Source: Parapedobacter luteus (GTDB lineage: Bacteria > Bacteroidota > Bacteroidia > Sphingobacteriales > Sphingobacteriaceae). From it: DNA of 48,365 nt. The stretch spans positions 1 through 48,365 of the forward strand of contig NZ_FUYS01000016.1 of the NCBI RefSeq assembly GCF_900168055.1, given 5' to 3'. The notes beneath the pieces were generated by a model, which did not search any database, had not been told where the DNA came from, and saw only the letters and a list, made by a program, of their open reading frames with translations. This document shows, piece after piece, positions 39,538-47,928 of the stretch. The position numbers and the translations under genes were made by a program. Every line of letters starts with the position of its first letter. The first letter of the stretch is position 1.

Positions 39538-42500
39538 ATGAAGAAAAGGATATTAGGACTTGATTTGGGTACCACTTCCATAGGCTTTGCACAAGTCATC
39601 GAAGGCGACACCCCAGAACAATCTTTTATCAAAAGAATAGGTGTGCGCGTAAATCCACTGACGACGGATGAACAAACCAATTTTGAAAAGGGTAAGCCGG
39701 TGTCTGTAAATGCAGACCGGACACTGAAACGGGGGATGAGACGCAATCTCGATCGCTTTCAGGACAGAAGAAGAAATCTGATAGAAGTATTGATACAATC
39801 AGGTTTGATTACAACCGAAAGCGTATTAGCTGAGGACGGCAAACATACTACGCACGAAACATGGCGGTTGCGTGCAAAAGCGGTTACAGAAAAAATTGAC
39901 AAAGAGCAATTCGCAAGAGTGCTGCTGGCCATCAACAAAAAGCGTGGCTACAAAAGCAGTCGAAAGACAAAAAATGAAGAAGAGGGACAGGCAATAGACG
40001 GCATGGCCACTGCGAAAAGGCTGTATGAGGAAAACATCACCCCTGGCCAACTTGCTTACCAACTATTAAAAGAGGGAAAGAAGACTCTTCCTGATTTTTA
40101 CCGTTCGGATTTGAATGCTGAGCTGGATAAAGTATGGAAGCAGCAACAGCAACATTATCCTGATATTTTTACCGATGAGTTTAAGAAATATCTGGAAGGT
40201 AAAGGGCAAAGGGCCACATCGACAAGCTTCTGGGGCAGATACCAAATCAACACCTCAGAAAATAAGGGTTCGAGGGATGAAAAGAAACTACAAGCCTATA
40301 AATGGCGGGCCGAAGCGGTGTCGCAACGACTGGAAAAAGAAGAGGCTGCTTATGTAATTACCGAAATCAATAATGACCTGAATAAGTCTTCCGGTTATCT
40401 TGGTGCCATATCCGACCGGAGTAAGGAATTGTACTTCAATAAGGAAACAGTTGGCCAATATCTATACAAGCAACTTCTACACAATCCACATACCCTTCTT
40501 AAAAATCAGGTGTTTTACCGGCAAGATTATATGGATGAGTTTGAGGCCATATGGAGCGAACAATCTAAACACCATGCAGAACTGACGGAGGAGCTGAAAA
40601 TAGAAATTCGGGATATCGTCATTTTTTATCAAAGGAAACTGAAGTCCCAGAAAGGATTGGTGAGCTTTTGTGAGTTTGAGAGCAAAGAAATCGAAATAGA
40701 GAGAAATGGGCAAATAGTCAAGAGAACCATTGGATTAAAAGTTGCCCCCAAATCTTCGCCCTTGTTTCAAGAGTTCAAGATTTGGCAGGTGCTCAACAAT
40801 TTGCTAATTCGCAAAAAAGGGAGCAGAAAGCGCACTGTAAAAAAGTCAGATAATTCAGGGGGAGAAGAACAAGAAATCTTTGCTTTCGACATGAACGCCA
40901 AGCAACTTTTGTTTGATGAGCTGAACATCAAGGGTAATCTAAGTGCTTCAAAAGCATTGGGTTTGTTGGGGTATAAGCCGCAAGATTATGAACTCAATTA
41001 CACCACAATAGAAGGTAACAGGACCAACAAAGCCCTCTATGATACCTACCTGAAAATATTGGAAATAGAAGGTTATGACGTGAAAGACTTACTGAAAGTC
41101 AAGAGCAACAAGGACGAAGTAGCCCTGGATGATATAGATGTGCCCGCTGTTGAAATCCAAAAAATGGTTCGGGATATTTTTGAAACATTAGGTATCAATA
41201 CGCAGATTTTGGAATTTAATGCCGAACTGGATGGAAAAGCCTTTGAGCAACAAGCCTCGTGTCAGTTATGGCATTTGTTGTATTCGGCGGAAGACGATAC
41301 CCGAAAATATAGCGAAGAGGATATTTTGGTTTTTGGTAATGAAAATATCGGTTTGAAGAAAAAGCTTTGCTCAAAATTCGGCTTCAAGCCCGAACACAGC
41401 AAGATATTGGTCAATGTCACCTTATCAGATGATTATGGCAATTTGAGTTCCAAAGCGATGCGTAGGATTTATCCGTATATCAAAGAACATCATTATTCAG
41501 ATGCCTGCGAACATGCCGGTTATCGCCACTCCAAATCTTCGCTCACAAAGGATGAAATCGCCAATCGGCCGTTGAAGGGGAGGTTGGAACTGTTAAAGAA
41601 AAACAGTTTACGGAACCCGGTAGTAGAGAAAATCCTCAACCAGATGGTAAATGTCGTCAACACTTTGATAGATGCCGAAAATGCCGAACGAAAGGCCCAA
41701 GGATTACCCGAAGATTTTCACTTTGACGAAATACGGATTGAATTGGCCCGTGAGCTGAAGAAGAATGCTAAGGAAAGAGCTGAGATGACCGCCAATATCA
41801 ACGCCGCTAAGCTCAAGCATGAAAGAATTGTGAGACTGTTGCAGACGGAGTTTGGCATAAAGAACCCAAGCCGTAATGATATTATCCGTTATAAATTGTA
41901 TGAAGAGTTGAAAAACAACGGTTATAAAGACCTGTATACAAATACATATATACCGCGGGAGATTCTGTTCAGCAAGCTGATTGATATCGACCATATTATT
42001 CCACAGGCTAAGCAGTTTGACGATAGTTTTTCCAATAAGACGGTTGTGTTTAGGCAAGACAATTTAGACAAGGGCAATAAAACGGCATATGACTACATTG
42101 AAAGCAAATATGGAGAGGTAGCAGCGGTGGATTTTGTTTTACGTGCCCAACATCTTTTTGAATTGGGACAAAAAAATTCCGAAGAAGGCATCTCAAAGGC
42201 TAAGTTCCAAAAACTGCAAAAACGGGAAAGTGACATCGGTGACGGCTTTATAGAAAGAGACTTGCGCGACAGCCAATATATTGCCAAGAAAGCAAAGAAT
42301 ATGCTATATGACATCACCCGTTCTGTGGTCAGTACATCAGGAAGTATTACGGATCGGCTGCGTGAAGATTGGGATTTGGTAAATATCATGCAGGAGTTGA
42401 ATCTCGAAAAATTCAGGAAGTTAGGCTTGACCGAGATGGTAGAAAAGAAAGACGGGACGTTTAAAGAACGTATTGTTGATTGGACCAAGCGCAACGATCA

Positions 42501-43890
42501 CCGACACCATGCGATGGACGCTTTGACGGTAGCTTTTACCAAGCATAATCATATTCAATATCTTAACTACTTGAACGCCAGAAAAAATGAACGCCATCGA
42601 TTGCATAGCAATATCATCGCAATTGAGGCAAAAGAAACAGAGTTGGTGATGGACAGCGATGGAAACAAAAAACGGGTACTCAAGTCCCCCATCCCCAACT
42701 TCCGCCAAGTGGCCAAAGCGCATTTGGAAAACGTATTGGTTTCGCATAAAGCAAAGAACAAAGTCGTCACCAAAAACAAAAATAGAACGAAGACCAAGTA
42801 TGGCGAAAGGGTGAGAACTGAATTAACACCACGCGGTCAGTTGCATAAGGAAACCGTGTACAGAAAGTACCGTTATTATCAAAGCAAGGAAGAAAAGGTC
42901 GGAGCTAAATTTGATAAGGAAACCATCCAAAAGGTTTCTAGCCCATTATACCGAAAATTGCTTTTAGAGAGACTGGCTGAAAACAACAATGACCCTAAAA
43001 AGGCTTTTACAGGAAGGAACGCGCTGAATAAAAACCCGATTTACCTAGACAATGCGAAGCAGAAAGTTTTACCCGAAAAACTGAAATTGGTCTGGCTCGA
43101 AGAAGACTATTCCATTCGTAAGGATGTAACACCCGAAAATCTGAAAGACGTTAAAACTATAGAGAAAGTACTGGATGGCAAAGCCAGAAACATCCTTTTG
43201 GAACGGTTGAACGAATATGGAGGCGATCCCAAAAGAGCGTTTTCCGATTTGGACAAAAATCCCATTTGGCTGAACCGGGAAAAAGGCATCAGCATCAAAC
43301 GGGTAACGATAAGTGGCGTGAAGAATGCAGAACCTTTGCATTACAAAAAAGACCATATGGGCAATGATATCCTAGATGACGAAGGCAAAAAAATTCCCGT
43401 AGATTTTGTCAGTACGGGTAACAATCATCACGTGGCGATATATCGGGATGAGAACGGCAATTTACAAGACCATGTTGTTTCATTTTTCGAAGCTGTCGAA
43501 AGAGTGAATCAGGGACTCACTGTCATTGATAAATCATACAACGCTCATTTGGGGTGGCAATTTTTGTTTACAATGAAGCAGAATGAGTATTTTGTCTTTT
43601 CCAATGATCAAATGGCATTTGATCCACGCGAAATTGATTTATTAGACCCTAAAAATAAAAAACTGATAAGCCCAAATTTGTATAGGGTACAGAAGTTATC
43701 TAAGGTCATTTACGGAAATTCCGCTGTAAGAGATTTTGTTTTTCGAAATCATTTGGAAACAACAGTAGAAGAAAAAAAGGAATTGAATGGCATCGCTTAT
43801 AAGCAATTAAAGAGCTTACCGTTTATGGAAAACATCATCAAAGTTCGCATCAATCATATTGGTGATATTGTAGGCATTGGAGAGTATTAA
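39538..43890 (+). CDS. cas9: Type II-C CRISPR nuclease Cas9 (large form)
   Basis: The 1450-residue protein has all nuclease motifs: RuvC-I GLDLGTTSIG with D9, an arginine-rich bridge helix (RTLKRGMRRNLDRFQDRRRN), RuvC-II with E735 (IRIELAREL), HNH with H819 (IDIDHIIPQ), and RuvC-III with H991 and D994 (DHRHHAMDALTVAF). It should be a crRNA/tracrRNA-guided double-strand DNA nuclease. The absence of csn2 and cas4, with cas1-cas2 after it, defines subtype II-C. It is longer than compact II-C enzymes (about 1000-1100 residues), as in other Bacteroidota. Part of the C-terminal region is internally repeated: RKLLLERLAENNNDPKKAF at 1139 and RNILLERLNEYGGDPKRAF at 1216. Confidence 0.97.
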   Translation: MKKRILGLDLGTTSIGFAQVIEGDTPEQSFIKRIGVRVNPLTTDEQTNFEKGKPVSVNADRTLKRGMRRNLDRFQDRRRNLIEVLIQSGLITTESVLAEDGKHTTHETWRLRAKAVTEKIDKEQFARVLLAINKKRGYKSSRKTKNEEEGQAIDGMATAKRLYEENITPGQLAYQLLKEGKKTLPDFYRSDLNAELDKVWKQQQQHYPDIFTDEFKKYLEGKGQRATSTSFWGRYQINTSENKGSRDEKKLQAYKWRAEAVSQRLEKEEAAYVITEINNDLNKSSGYLGAISDRSKELYFNKETVGQYLYKQLLHNPHTLLKNQVFYRQDYMDEFEAIWSEQSKHHAELTEELKIEIRDIVIFYQRKLKSQKGLVSFCEFESKEIEIERNGQIVKRTIGLKVAPKSSPLFQEFKIWQVLNNLLIRKKGSRKRTVKKSDNSGGEEQEIFAFDMNAKQLLFDELNIKGNLSASKALGLLGYKPQDYELNYTTIEGNRTNKALYDTYLKILEIEGYDVKDLLKVKSNKDEVALDDIDVPAVEIQKMVRDIFETLGINTQILEFNAELDGKAFEQQASCQLWHLLYSAEDDTRKYSEEDILVFGNENIGLKKKLCSKFGFKPEHSKILVNVTLSDDYGNLSSKAMRRIYPYIKEHHYSDACEHAGYRHSKSSLTKDEIANRPLKGRLELLKKNSLRNPVVEKILNQMVNVVNTLIDAENAERKAQGLPEDFHFDEIRIELARELKKNAKERAEMTANINAAKLKHERIVRLLQTEFGIKNPSRNDIIRYKLYEELKNNGYKDLYTNTYIPREILFSKLIDIDHIIPQAKQFDDSFSNKTVVFRQDNLDKGNKTAYDYIESKYGEVAAVDFVLRAQHLFELGQKNSEEGISKAKFQKLQKRESDIGDGFIERDLRDSQYIAKKAKNMLYDITRSVVSTSGSITDRLREDWDLVNIMQELNLEKFRKLGLTEMVEKKDGTFKERIVDWTKRNDHRHHAMDALTVAFTKHNHIQYLNYLNARKNERHRLHSNIIAIEAKETELVMDSDGNKKRVLKSPIPNFRQVAKAHLENVLVSHKAKNKVVTKNKNRTKTKYGERVRTELTPRGQLHKETVYRKYRYYQSKEEKVGAKFDKETIQKVSSPLYRKLLLERLAENNNDPKKAFTGRNALNKNPIYLDNAKQKVLPEKLKLVWLEEDYSIRKDVTPENLKDVKTIEKVLDGKARNILLERLNEYGGDPKRAFSDLDKNPIWLNREKGISIKRVTISGVKNAEPLHYKKDHMGNDILDDEGKKIPVDFVSTGNNHHVAIYRDENGNLQDHVVSFFEAVERVNQGLTVIDKSYNAHLGWQFLFTMKQNEYFVFSNDQMAFDPREIDLLDPKNKKLISPNLYRVQKLSKVIYGNSAVRDFVFRNHLETTVEEKKELNGIAYKQLKSLPFMENIIKVRINHIGDIVGIGEY

Positions 43891-43900
43891 TAAGCGCAGT

Positions 43901-44374
43901 ATGAACCGCACCGATTTCCTCAAATCCATTGGCCTTGGCGCAGGCGGGTTAATCCTGCCCGCTAAGGGTTTGATTAGCACGAAATCCGTAAAGATATACG
44001 ACAACTATATTCGTGGGCTGATGCATTATGACTTTAATGAAATCGAGGACAATATCCAAGCTGGCGATGAAGTGCATCTGGTGCGCGAGCCCACGAATAT
44101 CTATGACAGTTTTGCCATACAAGTGAATAGAGGTGACAAACGATTGGGGTATATCGCCGCCTATGAGAATATTGTGCTGGCCAATATGATGGATGCTGGC
44201 GTAGGTCTTAGCGCCTACATCAGTCATAAAGATCTAAAACGCCCTGCGCAGGAATGGTTGGCAATTGAGGTCTTTGCAGAGTTGGTTATCCCCAGTCAGC
44301 AACTGGTGGATAGCGTACTTGCCCAGCATCGCGCGGATGATGTTCCGGATGTGTATCGGCTAGGGGAGGTTTAA
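43901..44374 (+). CDS. HIRAN-domain protein between cas9 and cas1
   Basis: The ATG at 43901, ten bases after the cas9 stop, is preferred over an in-frame GTG/ATG-like start at 43877 inside cas9. The 157-residue product has a HIRAN domain at about 30-108 (IRGLMHYDFNEIEDNIQAGD, VHLVREPTNIYDSFAIQV, RLGYIAAYENIVLANMMDAG). HIRAN domains bind DNA ends, for example the 3' end of single-stranded DNA in HLTF/Rad5. The first 22 residues (RTDFLKSIGLGAGGLILP) resemble a Bacteroidota Tat leader, but the second arginine is threonine, so export is doubtful. Its place in the cas operon suggests a role in spacer acquisition or target processing; this is inference, as HIRAN is not a standard type II-C protein. 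Confidence 0.85.
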   Translation: MNRTDFLKSIGLGAGGLILPAKGLISTKSVKIYDNYIRGLMHYDFNEIEDNIQAGDEVHLVREPTNIYDSFAIQVNRGDKRLGYIAAYENIVLANMMDAGVGLSAYISHKDLKRPAQEWLAIEVFAELVIPSQQLVDSVLAQHRADDVPDVYRLGEV

Positions 44375-44387
44375 AAGCGGGCAGAAC

Positions 44388-45284
44388 ATGATCAAGCGCA
44401 CCCTTATGTTTTCCAATCCGGCTTATCTGAGCCACAGGAATAGTCAATTGGTAATTTCCTTTCCTGACAAAGAGAAAGATGACCGGACGGTACCGATCGA
44501 AGATATTGGCGTGGTAGTACTGGAAAATCAGCAGATAACCATTTCCCACGGATGCATCGCCGCTCTCGTACAGAACAACGTTGCCCTCATTTCCTGTGAC
44601 GCCAGCCACATGCCCACCGGACTGATTTTGCCTTTGGATGGCGGGAATACCCAAGCCGAACGATTCCGATACCAGATAGAAGCGTCGCTGCCCTTGAAAA
44701 AACAGCTTTGGCAACAAACCATCCAGCAGAAAATCTACAATCAGGCGCGTGTGCTGGAAAAGTTAGGGATAGCATCGGGCAACATGTACCGCTGGTCGAA
44801 GTCTGTCAAATCCGGTGATCCTGATAACTATGAAGGCCGTGCGGCTGCGTATTATTGGCAAAATATCTTTAGCGAATACCTCGAATTCAGCCGGAATAGG
44901 GGTGGAGAGCCACCCAATAATTTACTGAACTACGGTTATGCCATTTTACGGGCTATTGTCGCGCGCAGCCTGGTGTCTTCCGGGTTACTGCCGACATTGG
45001 GGATATTCCACAGGAATAAGTATAATGCCTATTGCCTGGCAGATGATATTATGGAGCCTTATCGTCCGTTTGTAGACTTAATCGTCTATGATATCGTCGC
45101 CAATGGAGGTGATTTTCAGGGGTTGGATACTGTGCTGAAAACCAAGCTACTGCAACTGCCACAGGTGGATGTGCGTTTTGACGATATGACCAGCCCGTTG
45201 CTGGTAGGTGCATCGCGGACGACTGCTTCATTGGCCAGGTGTTTCGAAGGCATATCCCGTAAAATCAATTATCCGTCTGTATAG
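44388..45284 (+). CDS. cas1: CRISPR integrase Cas1
   Basis: The 298-residue protein is a type II Cas1. It has the N-terminal beta domain (VPIEDIGVVVLENQQITISHG, ALISCDASHMPTGLILPL) and the helical catalytic domain with metal ligands E149 (NYEGRAAAYYW), H208 (LGIFHRNKYNAYCLADD) and acidic residues at about 219-223. With Cas2 it integrates new spacers into the array. It starts 13 bp after the HIRAN gene and ends 6 bp before cas2, so cas9, HIRAN, cas1 and cas2 form one operon. All expected residues are present, so the integrase looks intact. Confidence 0.96.
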   Translation: MIKRTLMFSNPAYLSHRNSQLVISFPDKEKDDRTVPIEDIGVVVLENQQITISHGCIAALVQNNVALISCDASHMPTGLILPLDGGNTQAERFRYQIEASLPLKKQLWQQTIQQKIYNQARVLEKLGIASGNMYRWSKSVKSGDPDNYEGRAAAYYWQNIFSEYLEFSRNRGGEPPNNLLNYGYAILRAIVARSLVSSGLLPTLGIFHRNKYNAYCLADDIMEPYRPFVDLIVYDIVANGGDFQGLDTVLKTKLLQLPQVDVRFDDMTSPLLVGASRTTASLARCFEGISRKINYPSV

Positions 45285-45623
<339 letters not shown>

Positions 45624-45636
45624 GAAAACCTTTTTA

Positions 45637-45671
45637 AAGTTCTCTTTTTGTGAACTTGTTTGCTATCTTTG
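45637..45671 (+). promoter_or_regulatory. Promoter and likely operator of higBA
   Basis: TATCTTTG at 45664-45671 is a perfect -7 box, although the -33 region is weak. Just upstream an inverted repeat AAGTTC (45637-45642) and GAACTT (45652-45657) spans the -33 position, a suitable HigA binding site for autoregulation. Transcription would begin only a few bases before the higB ATG at 45683. Confidence 0.55.
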
Positions 45672-45682
45672 TATATTATTAC

Positions 45683-46015
45683 ATGCGTGTACATTTAATA
45701 AAACGACAGACTATTGAGCAATTCGCTATCATGCATGCCAGAAGTAGTGTTTCATTAAGGGATTGGTTGGGAAAGATCAAATACGCGGATTGGGAGTCGC
45801 CGATGGATATAAAACATACGTTCAATAGTGCAGACCTGTTAGGTAACGGTAGTAATAGGGTGGTATTTGATGTTGGTGGTAATAATTATAGATTAATTTG
45901 TAAGTATGTTTTTGGTGCAACACAAATACACCTATTTATATGCTGGATAGGCACACACGCCGAATATGATAAGCTATGTGCATCAGGTACACAGTATATA
46001 GTAAACGATTATTAA
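45683..46015 (+). CDS. higB: HigB-type mRNA interferase toxin
   Basis: From the ATG at 45683 the product has 110 residues and matches the HigB toxin family: MRVHLIKRQTIEQFAIMH, LRDWLGKIKYADWESPMDIK, SADLLGNGSNRVVFDVGGNN, YRLICKYVF and the ending WIGTHAEYDKL. An in-frame GTG at 45650 lies inside the operator region and is rejected. HigB toxins are RelE-fold ribosome-dependent mRNA interferases neutralised by HigA. The gene is toxin-first, followed 4 bp later by higA, as in classical higBA. It lies between cas2 and the CRISPR array. Confidence 0.92.
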   Translation: MRVHLIKRQTIEQFAIMHARSSVSLRDWLGKIKYADWESPMDIKHTFNSADLLGNGSNRVVFDVGGNNYRLICKYVFGATQIHLFICWIGTHAEYDKLCASGTQYIVNDY

Positions 46016-46019
46016 GATT

Positions 46020-46463
46020 ATGGCAACATTAAAATATAGCGTCATCAAAGACAAAGCACAATACGACACCTATTGTAAAGAATTGGAGACGTTGCTTGAG
46101 GGTGATCCTGTCAATTACGAGGAAGTGGAGTTGCTTACTTTATTGATTGAACATTACGATACCACAAATAATAGTTTCAAGGAAATGGATCCTATCGAAC
46201 TATTGAAATCGCTCATGAAAGATCACGACATGCGACCCAAGGATTTGGTCAATTATTTGGGTATTAGCAAAGGATATATTTCAGATATCTTGAATTATAA
46301 AAAAGGGCTTTCTAAAGAAGTTATCCGTAAGTTGGCCAGCCGATTTAATCTGTCCCAAGAGGCATTCAACAGGCCCTACAAACTCCACGTTCCAGAGAAT
46401 CGGCATTTTAGAAATGCTAGTATGATGAATTTTCCAAAAGAAATCCATCCGTCGTTGGTATAA
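46020..46463 (+). CDS. higA: HigA-type antitoxin with XRE helix-turn-helix
   Basis: The 147-residue protein begins with a helical region (DTYCKELETLLEGDPVNYEEVELLTLLIEHYD) and has an XRE-type helix-turn-helix at about 70-115 (HDMRPKDLVNYLGISKGYISDILNYKKGLSKEVIRKLASRF, quoted in part by position). HigA proteins bind HigB and repress the higBA promoter. The inverted repeat at 45637-45657 is the likely operator. It is complete and follows higB at 4 bp, so the module looks functional. A bidirectional terminator separates it from the array. Confidence 0.92.
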   Translation: MATLKYSVIKDKAQYDTYCKELETLLEGDPVNYEEVELLTLLIEHYDTTNNSFKEMDPIELLKSLMKDHDMRPKDLVNYLGISKGYISDILNYKKGLSKEVIRKLASRFNLSQEAFNRPYKLHVPENRHFRNASMMNFPKEIHPSLV

Positions 46464-46633: not shown

Positions 46634-47100
46634 GCTGTGCCTAATATCAGTAAATCAAAGAATGAAAGCAAATCACAACCGAAATGTACAATGAAAAAAA
46701 CATTGTCTCGCTGTGCCTAATATCAGTAAATCAAAGAATGAAAGCAAATCACAACAGGAAGCTACGGTGCTTGGCGCTCGGTCTGGCTGTGCCTAATATC
46801 AGTAAATCAAAGAATGAAAGCAAATCACAACTACCGATGCGCTTGGTTGCGCCAGTCGTCGCTGTGCCTAATATCAGTAAATCAAAGAATGAAAGCAAAT
46901 CACAACGACCTACATAATTATCACCACTGAAATTAAGCTGTGCCTAATATCAGTAAATCAAAGAATGAAAGCAAATCACAACCGAAATGGACTACTACAA
47001 AAACATTGATAAGCTGTGCCTAATATCAGTAAATCAAAGAATGAAAGCAAATCACAACCAAGTCCGTGCGCTTCAAGGCACTTCGGGGGCTGTGCCTAAT
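46634..47100 (-). CRISPR. Type II-C CRISPR array, six full repeats plus a truncated seventh
   Basis: Six identical 46-nt repeats start at 46634, 46710, 46786, 46861, 46937 and 47013. On the plus strand they read GCTGTGCCTAATATCAG at one end and GCAAATCACAAC at the other. A seventh starts at 47089 but is cut after 12 bases by the IS21 element. Five spacers are 30 nt and the third is 29 nt. Pairing with the tracrRNA shows that crRNAs are read from the minus strand (repeat starting GTTGTGATTTGC), so the promoter side is at the right, where the insertion lies. The repeat has no TAnnTTTG box of its own. Spacers at 46680-46709 and 46983-47012 are related. Confidence 0.97.
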
Positions 47101-47106
47101 TGAATA

Positions 47107-47149
47107 TTCCGGGGAAAGTACACCACCCGTTCCGGATGAAAGTACACCA
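47107..47149. repeat. Internal direct repeats at the IS21 terminus
   Basis: TTCCGG followed by GAAAGTACACCA occurs twice, at 47107-47125 (one G between the two halves counted in the run of Gs) and 47130-47149. Such multiple terminal repeats are IstA binding sites in IS21-family elements. Confidence 0.75.
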
Positions 47150-47196
47150 GTGAAGAGGCCAATAATCTGCGCAGCTGCGCCACTGGGTTTTCAAAG

Positions 47197-47928
47197 TTAG
47201 TGATTTTTTTTCTTCCTCATAGACTTGCCCTGAAGGGGTAGCCTATGTGCCGATGCTGTCAATCTGTCCATTATCGCGTCGGCCAGTGTAGGTTCATCGA
47301 TAAAGTTGTACCACGCCTCCACCGGTAACTGCGAAGTGATAATCACCGAACTGTTGCCATATCGGTCTTCCAGTATATCCAATAGTGCCAGCCTGGCGTC
47401 TGCATCGATCGCCTTCAGTCCGAAGTCATCGAGTATAAGTAATCTGTGGTTGGATATGGCTTTGATCCACTTAAGGTATGTACCGTCGAGCCTGGTCTGG
47501 GAGACCGTATCCATGAAACGGTTCATGCTGAAATACAATGTGCGGTATCCCAGCAGGCATGCCGATCGTCCCAGGGCACAGGCCAGGAAGCTTTTGCCGG
47601 ATCCGGTAGCCCCGGTGATCAGTACATTGTCACCCCGCCCGATAAAGGCCCCATCCGATAAGCGGAGCACCTGTTCGCGCGTGATCCCTCTTTCCGGGTT
47701 GCAGACAATCTCTTCGGGCAGGGCGTTGTAGCGCAGCCGGCTTGCCTTCAGGTATTTCTGCGTCCTGGTGTGGTCGCGGTATTCCACCTCGGCCTGCACC
47801 ATGGATGCCAATAGTTCATGTACGTTCTGTACTTCGTGCACGGGTAGTGCACTCACCGCTTCGTAACGTCTGGCCATCCCGGCCAGACGGAGCGTTCTTA
47901 GCTGTTCGATTGTCTGATCTGTATTCAT
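47197..47928 (-). CDS. istB: IS21-family helper ATPase IstB
   Basis: The 243-residue protein is the AAA+ ATPase that helps the IS21 transposase choose and bind target DNA. Visible motifs are the N-terminal IstB segment (QLRTLRLAGMARRYEAV), Walker A GATGSGKSF, Walker B LLILDDFGL and the sensor region SSVIITSQLPVEAWY. The length is normal and no disruption is seen. It starts 20 bp after the istA stop in the same direction. Confidence 0.95.
   Translation of the reverse strand: MNTDQTIEQLRTLRLAGMARRYEAVSALPVHEVQNVHELLASMVQAEVEYRDHTRTQKYLKASRLRYNALPEEIVCNPERGITREQVLRLSDGAFIGRGDNVLITGATGSGKSFLACALGRSACLLGYRTLYFSMNRFMDTVSQTRLDGTYLKWIKAISNHRLLILDDFGLKAIDADARLALLDILEDRYGNSSVIITSQLPVEAWYNFIDEPTLADAIMDRLTASAHRLPLQGKSMRKKKNH

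Follow-up and report, generated by a model that had tools for sequence, protein, structure and literature searches.

A HIRAN-domain gene between cas9 and cas1 of Parapedobacter luteus, a candidate accessory gene of CRISPR-Cas loci

What could a small gene encoding a HIRAN domain be doing between cas9 and cas1, in the midst of a CRISPR-Cas operon? The question is raised by a locus of Parapedobacter luteus (Sphingobacteriaceae) contained in a window of 48,365 nucleotides (assembly GCF_900168055.1, contig NZ_FUYS01000016.1), the whole stretch of DNA that was analysed. The following features of the window are referred to throughout.

39538..43890, + strand, cas9, 1450 aa
43901..44374, + strand, HIRAN-domain gene, 157 aa, in the cas9/cas1 interval
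43901..43972, + strand, Tat-like leader, aa 1-24, whose second Arg is replaced by Thr; pLDDT below 50
44009..44230, + strand, HIRAN domain according to Pfam, aa 37-110
44096..44107, + strand, N66-x-Y68-D69, by alignment the counterpart of NPYD in the HLTF HIRAN domain
44333..44359, + strand, C-terminal tail ADDVPDVYR, aa 145-153, observed in the cas9-linked short clade only
44388..45284, + strand, cas1, type II family
45291..45623, + strand, cas2, start codon GTG
46634..47100, no strand assigned, CRISPR array with 46-nt repeats (six intact, the seventh stopping at 12 nt) and six spacers of 29-30 nt

The HIRAN gene at 43901-44374 is real and is the one HIRAN found in the P. luteus genome. With cas9 ending 10 bp before it and cas1 starting 13 bp after it, its position bears out the first-pass annotation, which had assigned it to the cas operon. 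Type II-C systems have neither Cas4 nor Csn2, and the P. luteus locus, with cas9, cas1, cas2 and an array and with csn2 and cas4 absent among the seven ORFs searched, is of this type. Elsewhere in the locus, a HigB-type toxin gene and an HTH partner occupy the interval between cas2 and the array (45650-46463), and spacers 1 (46680-46709) and 5 (46983-47012), CGAAATG...AAAAACATTG..., resemble variants of a single target. Beyond the broken seventh repeat lies a gene for an IstB/IS21-type ATPase (Pfam E 7e-53; both within window 47089-47928), and the array seems to have been truncated by an insertion.

The 157-aa protein matched the Pfam HIRAN family (PF08797) with an E-value of 1.5e-11 and 44.4 bits, against a curated cut-off of 24.7, and it likely adopts the HIRAN fold. 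HIRAN was the sole family found in Pfam at E up to 1 and NCBIfam gave no match at E up to 0.1, so that the protein belongs to neither the Cas4 nor the Csn2 families by these searches. Among its closest known counterparts is the human protein HLTF, a multidomain translocase with several HIRAN structures (PDB 4s0n, 4xzf, 4xzg, 5bnh), whereas the P. luteus protein consists of a single HIRAN domain flanked by a leader and a tail, is encoded in a cas operon and has no motor domain. According to passages of PMC11237066, the HLTF HIRAN domain binds single-strand 3'-OH ends, the isolated domain binds best to the Cas9 complex in which a 3' end is exposed, and its target in the Cas9 post-cleavage complex is the end released by RuvC. 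The same passages report that Cas9 removal was largely abolished by the N90A-N91A substitutions of HLTF and was inhibited by the HIRAN domain alone. Judging from the alignment together with these passages, N66 would correspond to N91, the second of the two HLTF asparagines; among the short cas-linked copies N66 is present in seven of eight and D69 in all eight. The HLTF results and the alignment of N66 suggest that the P. luteus domain would bind 3' ends as well.

The N-terminus had been read as a Tat leader that lost an arginine, and this reading held. Thr at position 4 of the P. luteus protein leaves it without the twin arginine that Tat substrates carry at the consensus position, and the second Arg is likewise absent from all 16 leader-bearing cas-linked HIRANs, which share the pattern M-x-[R/Q]-x-x-F-[L/I] (Arg at position 4 in 0/16; G642 and the unlinked G503, with RR present and then no hydrophobic stretch, were left out of this count). 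On the Kyte-Doolittle scale, the most hydrophobic stretch of 12 residues has a mean of 1.1-2.2 across the 11 leaders for which it was calculated. Two HIRANs unlinked to cas genes, G854 and G816, carry FTRRAFLK, a canonical Tat motif. Recruitment from an exported family, as proposed earlier, is thus plausible from the lost arginine and these canonical motifs; the present-day leader has probably left an export-signal role behind and would at most recruit the protein to the membrane.

To what extent does this arrangement recur? A scan in which each species was represented by one genome returned nine loci, of which three hold real relatives, each between cas9 and cas1: two assemblies of Pedobacter glucosidilyticus (L003, L004) and Olivibacter sitiensis (L005), in which the HIRAN gene is frameshifted near its end and is separated from cas1 by RhuM and RhuM/Fic genes. 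The other six matches (L006-L011) were set aside; they cover aa 1-57 only, and the one inspected, L009, has no HIRAN ORF. In a draw of 399 genomes of the family, all eight HIRAN matches lay in cas loci (G018, G097 and G037 being the same three loci as L003, L004 and L005). P. luteus-type Cas1 (E up to 1e-20) was found in 44 of these genomes, and all 44 loci, that of P. luteus and 43 others, were read. HIRAN is present in nine and absent from 35. The short form is intact in P. luteus, G018 and G097 and frameshifted in G037, a long form of 285-291 aa is found in G040 and G132, and remnants are left in G003 (spotted by eye, outside the eight profile matches), G086 and G113; four of the nine are therefore decayed. 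Since just nine of 44 loci have HIRAN, three of them as a remnant and one frameshifted, the gene is dispensable. Long HIRANs (244-291 aa) with a C-terminal part of their own represent a second kind, which was also seen between cas9 and cas1 in L070, L091 and L128; this C-terminal part gave no Pfam match above the cut-off in the two proteins checked.

Insertions have repeatedly entered the cas9-cas1 gap of the family II-C loci. No clear cargo was seen there in 19 of the 35 HIRAN-free loci (cas9 in the same direction in 14 and opposite in five), and unrelated cargo occupies the gap in the other 16: type III restriction-modification genes or a remnant (five loci), DUF6036-type nucleotidyltransferases or a remnant (four), a 208-aa family with the motif MPNHFHLLVR (three; no Pfam match for the one searched), DUF6155, alone or together with PRiA4_ORF3 (two), RhuM/Fic (one) and a 244-aa gene in G263 (one). 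On its motif, the 208-aa family presumably belongs with proteins resembling REP-associated transposases. MazF-like and AAA-ATPase genes likewise occur among the gap cargo of the 44 loci. HIRAN is the commonest occupant of the gap, by a manual sorting of ORF readings in which Pfam was run on representatives only. In G332 (L061) cas9 is split into two ORFs, and the cas1 downstream of them is intact.

Beyond the family, profile A3, built on the leader and HIRAN domain, gave 36 matches, spread over 35 of the 395 genomes drawn from the class. Up to 20 kb around the 35 matches besides P. luteus were searched for Cas1, Cas2 and Cas9, and 23 of these regions were read ORF by ORF. Cas genes adjoin 11 of the 36 matches, ten of type II (P. 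luteus, G620, G746, G644, G436, G643, G621, G560, G716 and G642) and one of type I-C, where one of the two HIRAN copies of G603 lies 85 bp from a divergent cas3 in an operon with Cas3c, Cas8c, Cas7c and Cas1c (PADLOC) and Cas4 (Pfam). A draw of 334 genomes from the phylum gave 25 matches, of which 11 were read with long flanks. In G867 a type I-B cas6-cas8b-cas7-cas5-cas3 operon lies directly downstream of HIRAN, and in G997 HIRAN stands beside a WYL regulator gene and a cas9 that runs off the contig, both oppositely oriented. The association thus recurs in other loci, other families and types II, I-C and I-B, and confinement to the P. luteus locus, which was part of the refutation set out earlier, is ruled out by the eight of eight family matches and 11 of 36 class matches in or by cas loci. 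The position itself varies. G436 and G643 carry HIRAN ahead of a codirectional cas9 (by 94 bp and 20 bp), and their cas9 and cas1 are 2 bp and 58 bp apart, which argues that HIRAN is more than a passenger of the cas9-cas1 gap. In G746 the HIRAN start and the stop of the preceding cas9 (1122 aa) overlap by 4 bp, with cas2-cas1 inverted further on; in G560 HIRAN follows cas2 by 3 bp and contains an in-frame stop; in G716 it is divergent from cas9.

Outside CRISPR loci, genes for type IIG enzymes were found about 1 kb (G519) and about 3 kb (G577) from unlinked HIRANs, and HIRAN may therefore be a general companion of DNA-cutting defence. Regulators matching WYL/WCX, some near the cut-off, are close to HIRAN in seven loci (L144, L227, L219, L218, L148, L129, L226), three of which are CRISPR loci, and a HIRAN-WYL pair is possible. 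Plasmids and phages gave no match to the P. luteus HIRAN protein by tblastn, nor did viral_contigs with alignment A4. Family and order searches around G620, G643 and G436 brought one new genome, G787 (E 5.6e-9), and no new member having both leader and tail.

Is the linkage to cas genes more than chance? A Cas9 match was found in 96 of the 395 class genomes (93 above the cut-off), namely in 17 of 35 genomes with HIRAN versus 79 of 360 others (Fisher p = 0.0014; p = 0.0026 without P. luteus). No more than about 3 kb separates HIRAN from cas9, cas1 or cas2 in nine of the 16 genomes other than P. luteus with both Cas9 and HIRAN matches; our rough estimate of chance proximity is about 0.4% per genome, for an expectation far below one, with the loci being partly related. 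On a tree of 46 HIRANs, 18 of them cas-linked, a sample biased towards cas-linked copies because the search profiles were made from such copies, the linkage label changes nine times, at least seven of these on starred branches, compared with a mean of 14.5 for shuffled labels, and at most two of 500 shuffles were as low. Linkage to cas genes is therefore clustered on the tree and was gained or lost several times.

The P. luteus HIRAN falls into a supported clade (99/94) of ten short members, nine of them linked to cas9 and one, G585, unlinked; the G585 genome has no Cas9 match in the class draw. The tail ADDxx[D/E]xYR is found in all eight intact cas9-linked members of this clade compared with none of 28 unlinked HIRANs, and it is absent from the other cas-linked HIRANs and from ten further loci. 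The motif AYEN[I/V]xxAN is also common to the eight intact cas-linked members, at identities to the P. luteus protein down to 44%, and in the frameshifted Olivibacter copy the tail is matched in another frame. Within the clade HIRAN adjoins cas9 in nine of nine loci (G620 being known through tblastn only) and cas1 directly in only three. The distances among the short HIRANs of eight loci follow those of Cas1 (Mantel r = 0.79, p = 0.003) and Cas2 (r = 0.78, p = 0.004) and not those of Cas9 (r = -0.09), with a partial r of 0.83 for Cas1 when Cas9 is controlled. With the long HIRANs included, over 11 loci, the correlation is gone (rho 0.22 for Cas1, p = 0.11; 0.03 for Cas2; -0.08 for Cas9).

The two loci labelled Pedobacter glucosidilyticus (L003 and L004) provide a natural replacement of cas9 in which the HIRAN-cas1-cas2 unit was retained. 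Their DNA is 95% identical upstream and 93% identical over HIRAN-cas1-cas2, whereas the cas9 DNA is unalignable and the Cas9 proteins are 37% identical; the right edge of the exchanged part lies 46 bp before the HIRAN start. These two close HIRAN copies are under purifying selection, with a dN/dS of 0.08 (dN 0.07 and dS 0.53 over the first 27 codons).

Cas4, Csn2 and DnaQ-like exonucleases are adaptation accessories, and they would act at the same step as the P. luteus HIRAN if the adaptation reading is right. Simple replacement of Cas4 was rejected as an explanation, since the type I-C locus beside the G603 HIRAN has a cas4 as well; the earlier suggestion that HIRAN fills a step for which II-C systems lack Cas4 and Csn2 is for the same reason incomplete. 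Among bacterial relatives, lp_0118 of Lactobacillus plantarum (PDB 3k2y, a structure of 103 residues) is listed as an uncharacterized protein. The HIRAN half of the PADLOC profile PDC-M03B matches the P. luteus protein (E 1.1e-14) over just positions 131-234 of 250; this profile probably represents the HipI-type HIRAN of HipA loci, HipI being named in PMC11706625. An antitoxin of the HipI kind was rejected for P. luteus, where no HipA was found among the seven ORFs searched and the neighbours are cas genes and the HigB/HTH pair.

Our preferred reading, held tentatively and at somewhat under an even chance, is that of a small accessory protein of CRISPR loci whose HIRAN domain binds DNA 3'-OH ends and which captures ends where cutting meets adaptation. 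The domain would bind 3'-OH ends of DNA, either a 3' end left by the cutting of invader DNA (for Cas9, the non-target-strand end that RuvC sets free) or a prespacer's 3' overhang; the protein would keep the captured end accessible for Cas1-Cas2, and the conserved C-terminal tail would contact the Cas machinery. Counted against end capture are the presence of HIRAN in only nine of 44 family loci, the other cargo in the gap, the cas4 of G603, the loss of correlation over 11 loci, and a P. luteus protein without a motor while the HLTF domain alone inhibits Cas9 removal. A rather unlikely rival treats the gap as a cargo site where genes for defence and toxins gather; HIRAN would be one of these, acting independently as a DNA-end or defence protein, or else cargo in decay. 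Its main argument is the unrelated cargo (type III restriction-modification, DUF6036, RhuM/Fic and others) in the same gap of the 44 family loci, to which the HIRAN remnants and the type IIG enzymes near the unlinked HIRANs of G577 and G519 can be added. Speaking against a mere passenger are HIRAN genes upstream of cas9, after cas2 and beside type I operons, a tail peculiar to the cas9-linked clade, and co-divergence with Cas1 and Cas2.

The constant adjacency to cas9 in the short clade favours the Cas9 side, and a factor for product release or end handling could bind the freed 3' end of the post-cleavage complex and speed turnover or expose the break to host nucleases, with adaptation uninvolved. 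This we consider unlikely; HIRAN upstream of cas9 in two loci and the stop overlap in one agree with it, as does the HLTF precedent (passages of PMC11237066), but the HIRAN sequence tracks Cas1 and Cas2 rather than Cas9 in the eight loci, it outlasted the replacement of cas9, its relatives adjoin type I-B and I-C operons, and the P. luteus protein lacks a motor domain. Co-divergence with Cas1/Cas2, the cas9 swap and the presence in type I loci lead us to favour adaptation, or a general handling of Cas-made ends, over a role with Cas9 only; the adaptation role is favoured here, not shown. It is improbable that HIRAN instead protects or tags 3' ends of the chromosome, once the CRISPR system has targeted its own genome or while a spacer is being integrated, and so limits the damage by that system. 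Such protection or repair would suit a domain that accompanies several DNA-cutting systems and that in HLTF is proposed to work on incised DNA and where nascent strands end at forks (work cited in PMC11237066), yet loss of HIRAN is common in the family loci. End capture may also be stated in a bolder and more doubtful form: a dedicated bacterial HIRAN family would couple interference to adaptation by gripping the 3' ends that Cas nucleases, chiefly Cas9, produce and passing them through the tail to Cas1-Cas2, as a natural prokaryotic counterpart of the HLTF HIRAN domain at Cas9 breaks in human cells, with several recruitments of its relatives into loci of types II-C, I-B and I-C.

The idea that such a factor had not yet been described agrees with our literature search, in which no open-licence PMC paper was found that brings HIRAN together with either cas1 and spacer acquisition or cas9 and type II-C. 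Among the matches listed there, which cover the texts of open-licence articles, no paper treats HIRAN genes in CRISPR loci, and HIRAN gave no hit in PMC10281378 or PMC10910872; large accessory-gene surveys could carry a HIRAN gene in a supplement. Bacterial HIRANs are known next to HipA and diDNase genes according to PMC11706625, and prokaryotic HIRANs are termed uncharacterized in a passage of PMC11090510. The HIRAN domain itself is thus already known, and what looks new is an undescribed accessory gene of CRISPR-Cas loci.

To our knowledge, the choice and preparation of prespacers in type II-C systems is poorly understood. A conserved protein that likely binds 3' ends, encoded in some II-C operons, gives this question a named gene. 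It offers two sites open to point mutation, N66/D69 and the ADDxx[D/E]xYR tail, and ready pairs of loci with and without HIRAN. Furthermore, it connects biochemistry done on Cas9 and human HLTF with a protein that occurs naturally in bacteria, for which the HLTF work is a testable precedent, and it may provide a compact handle on Cas9 product release.
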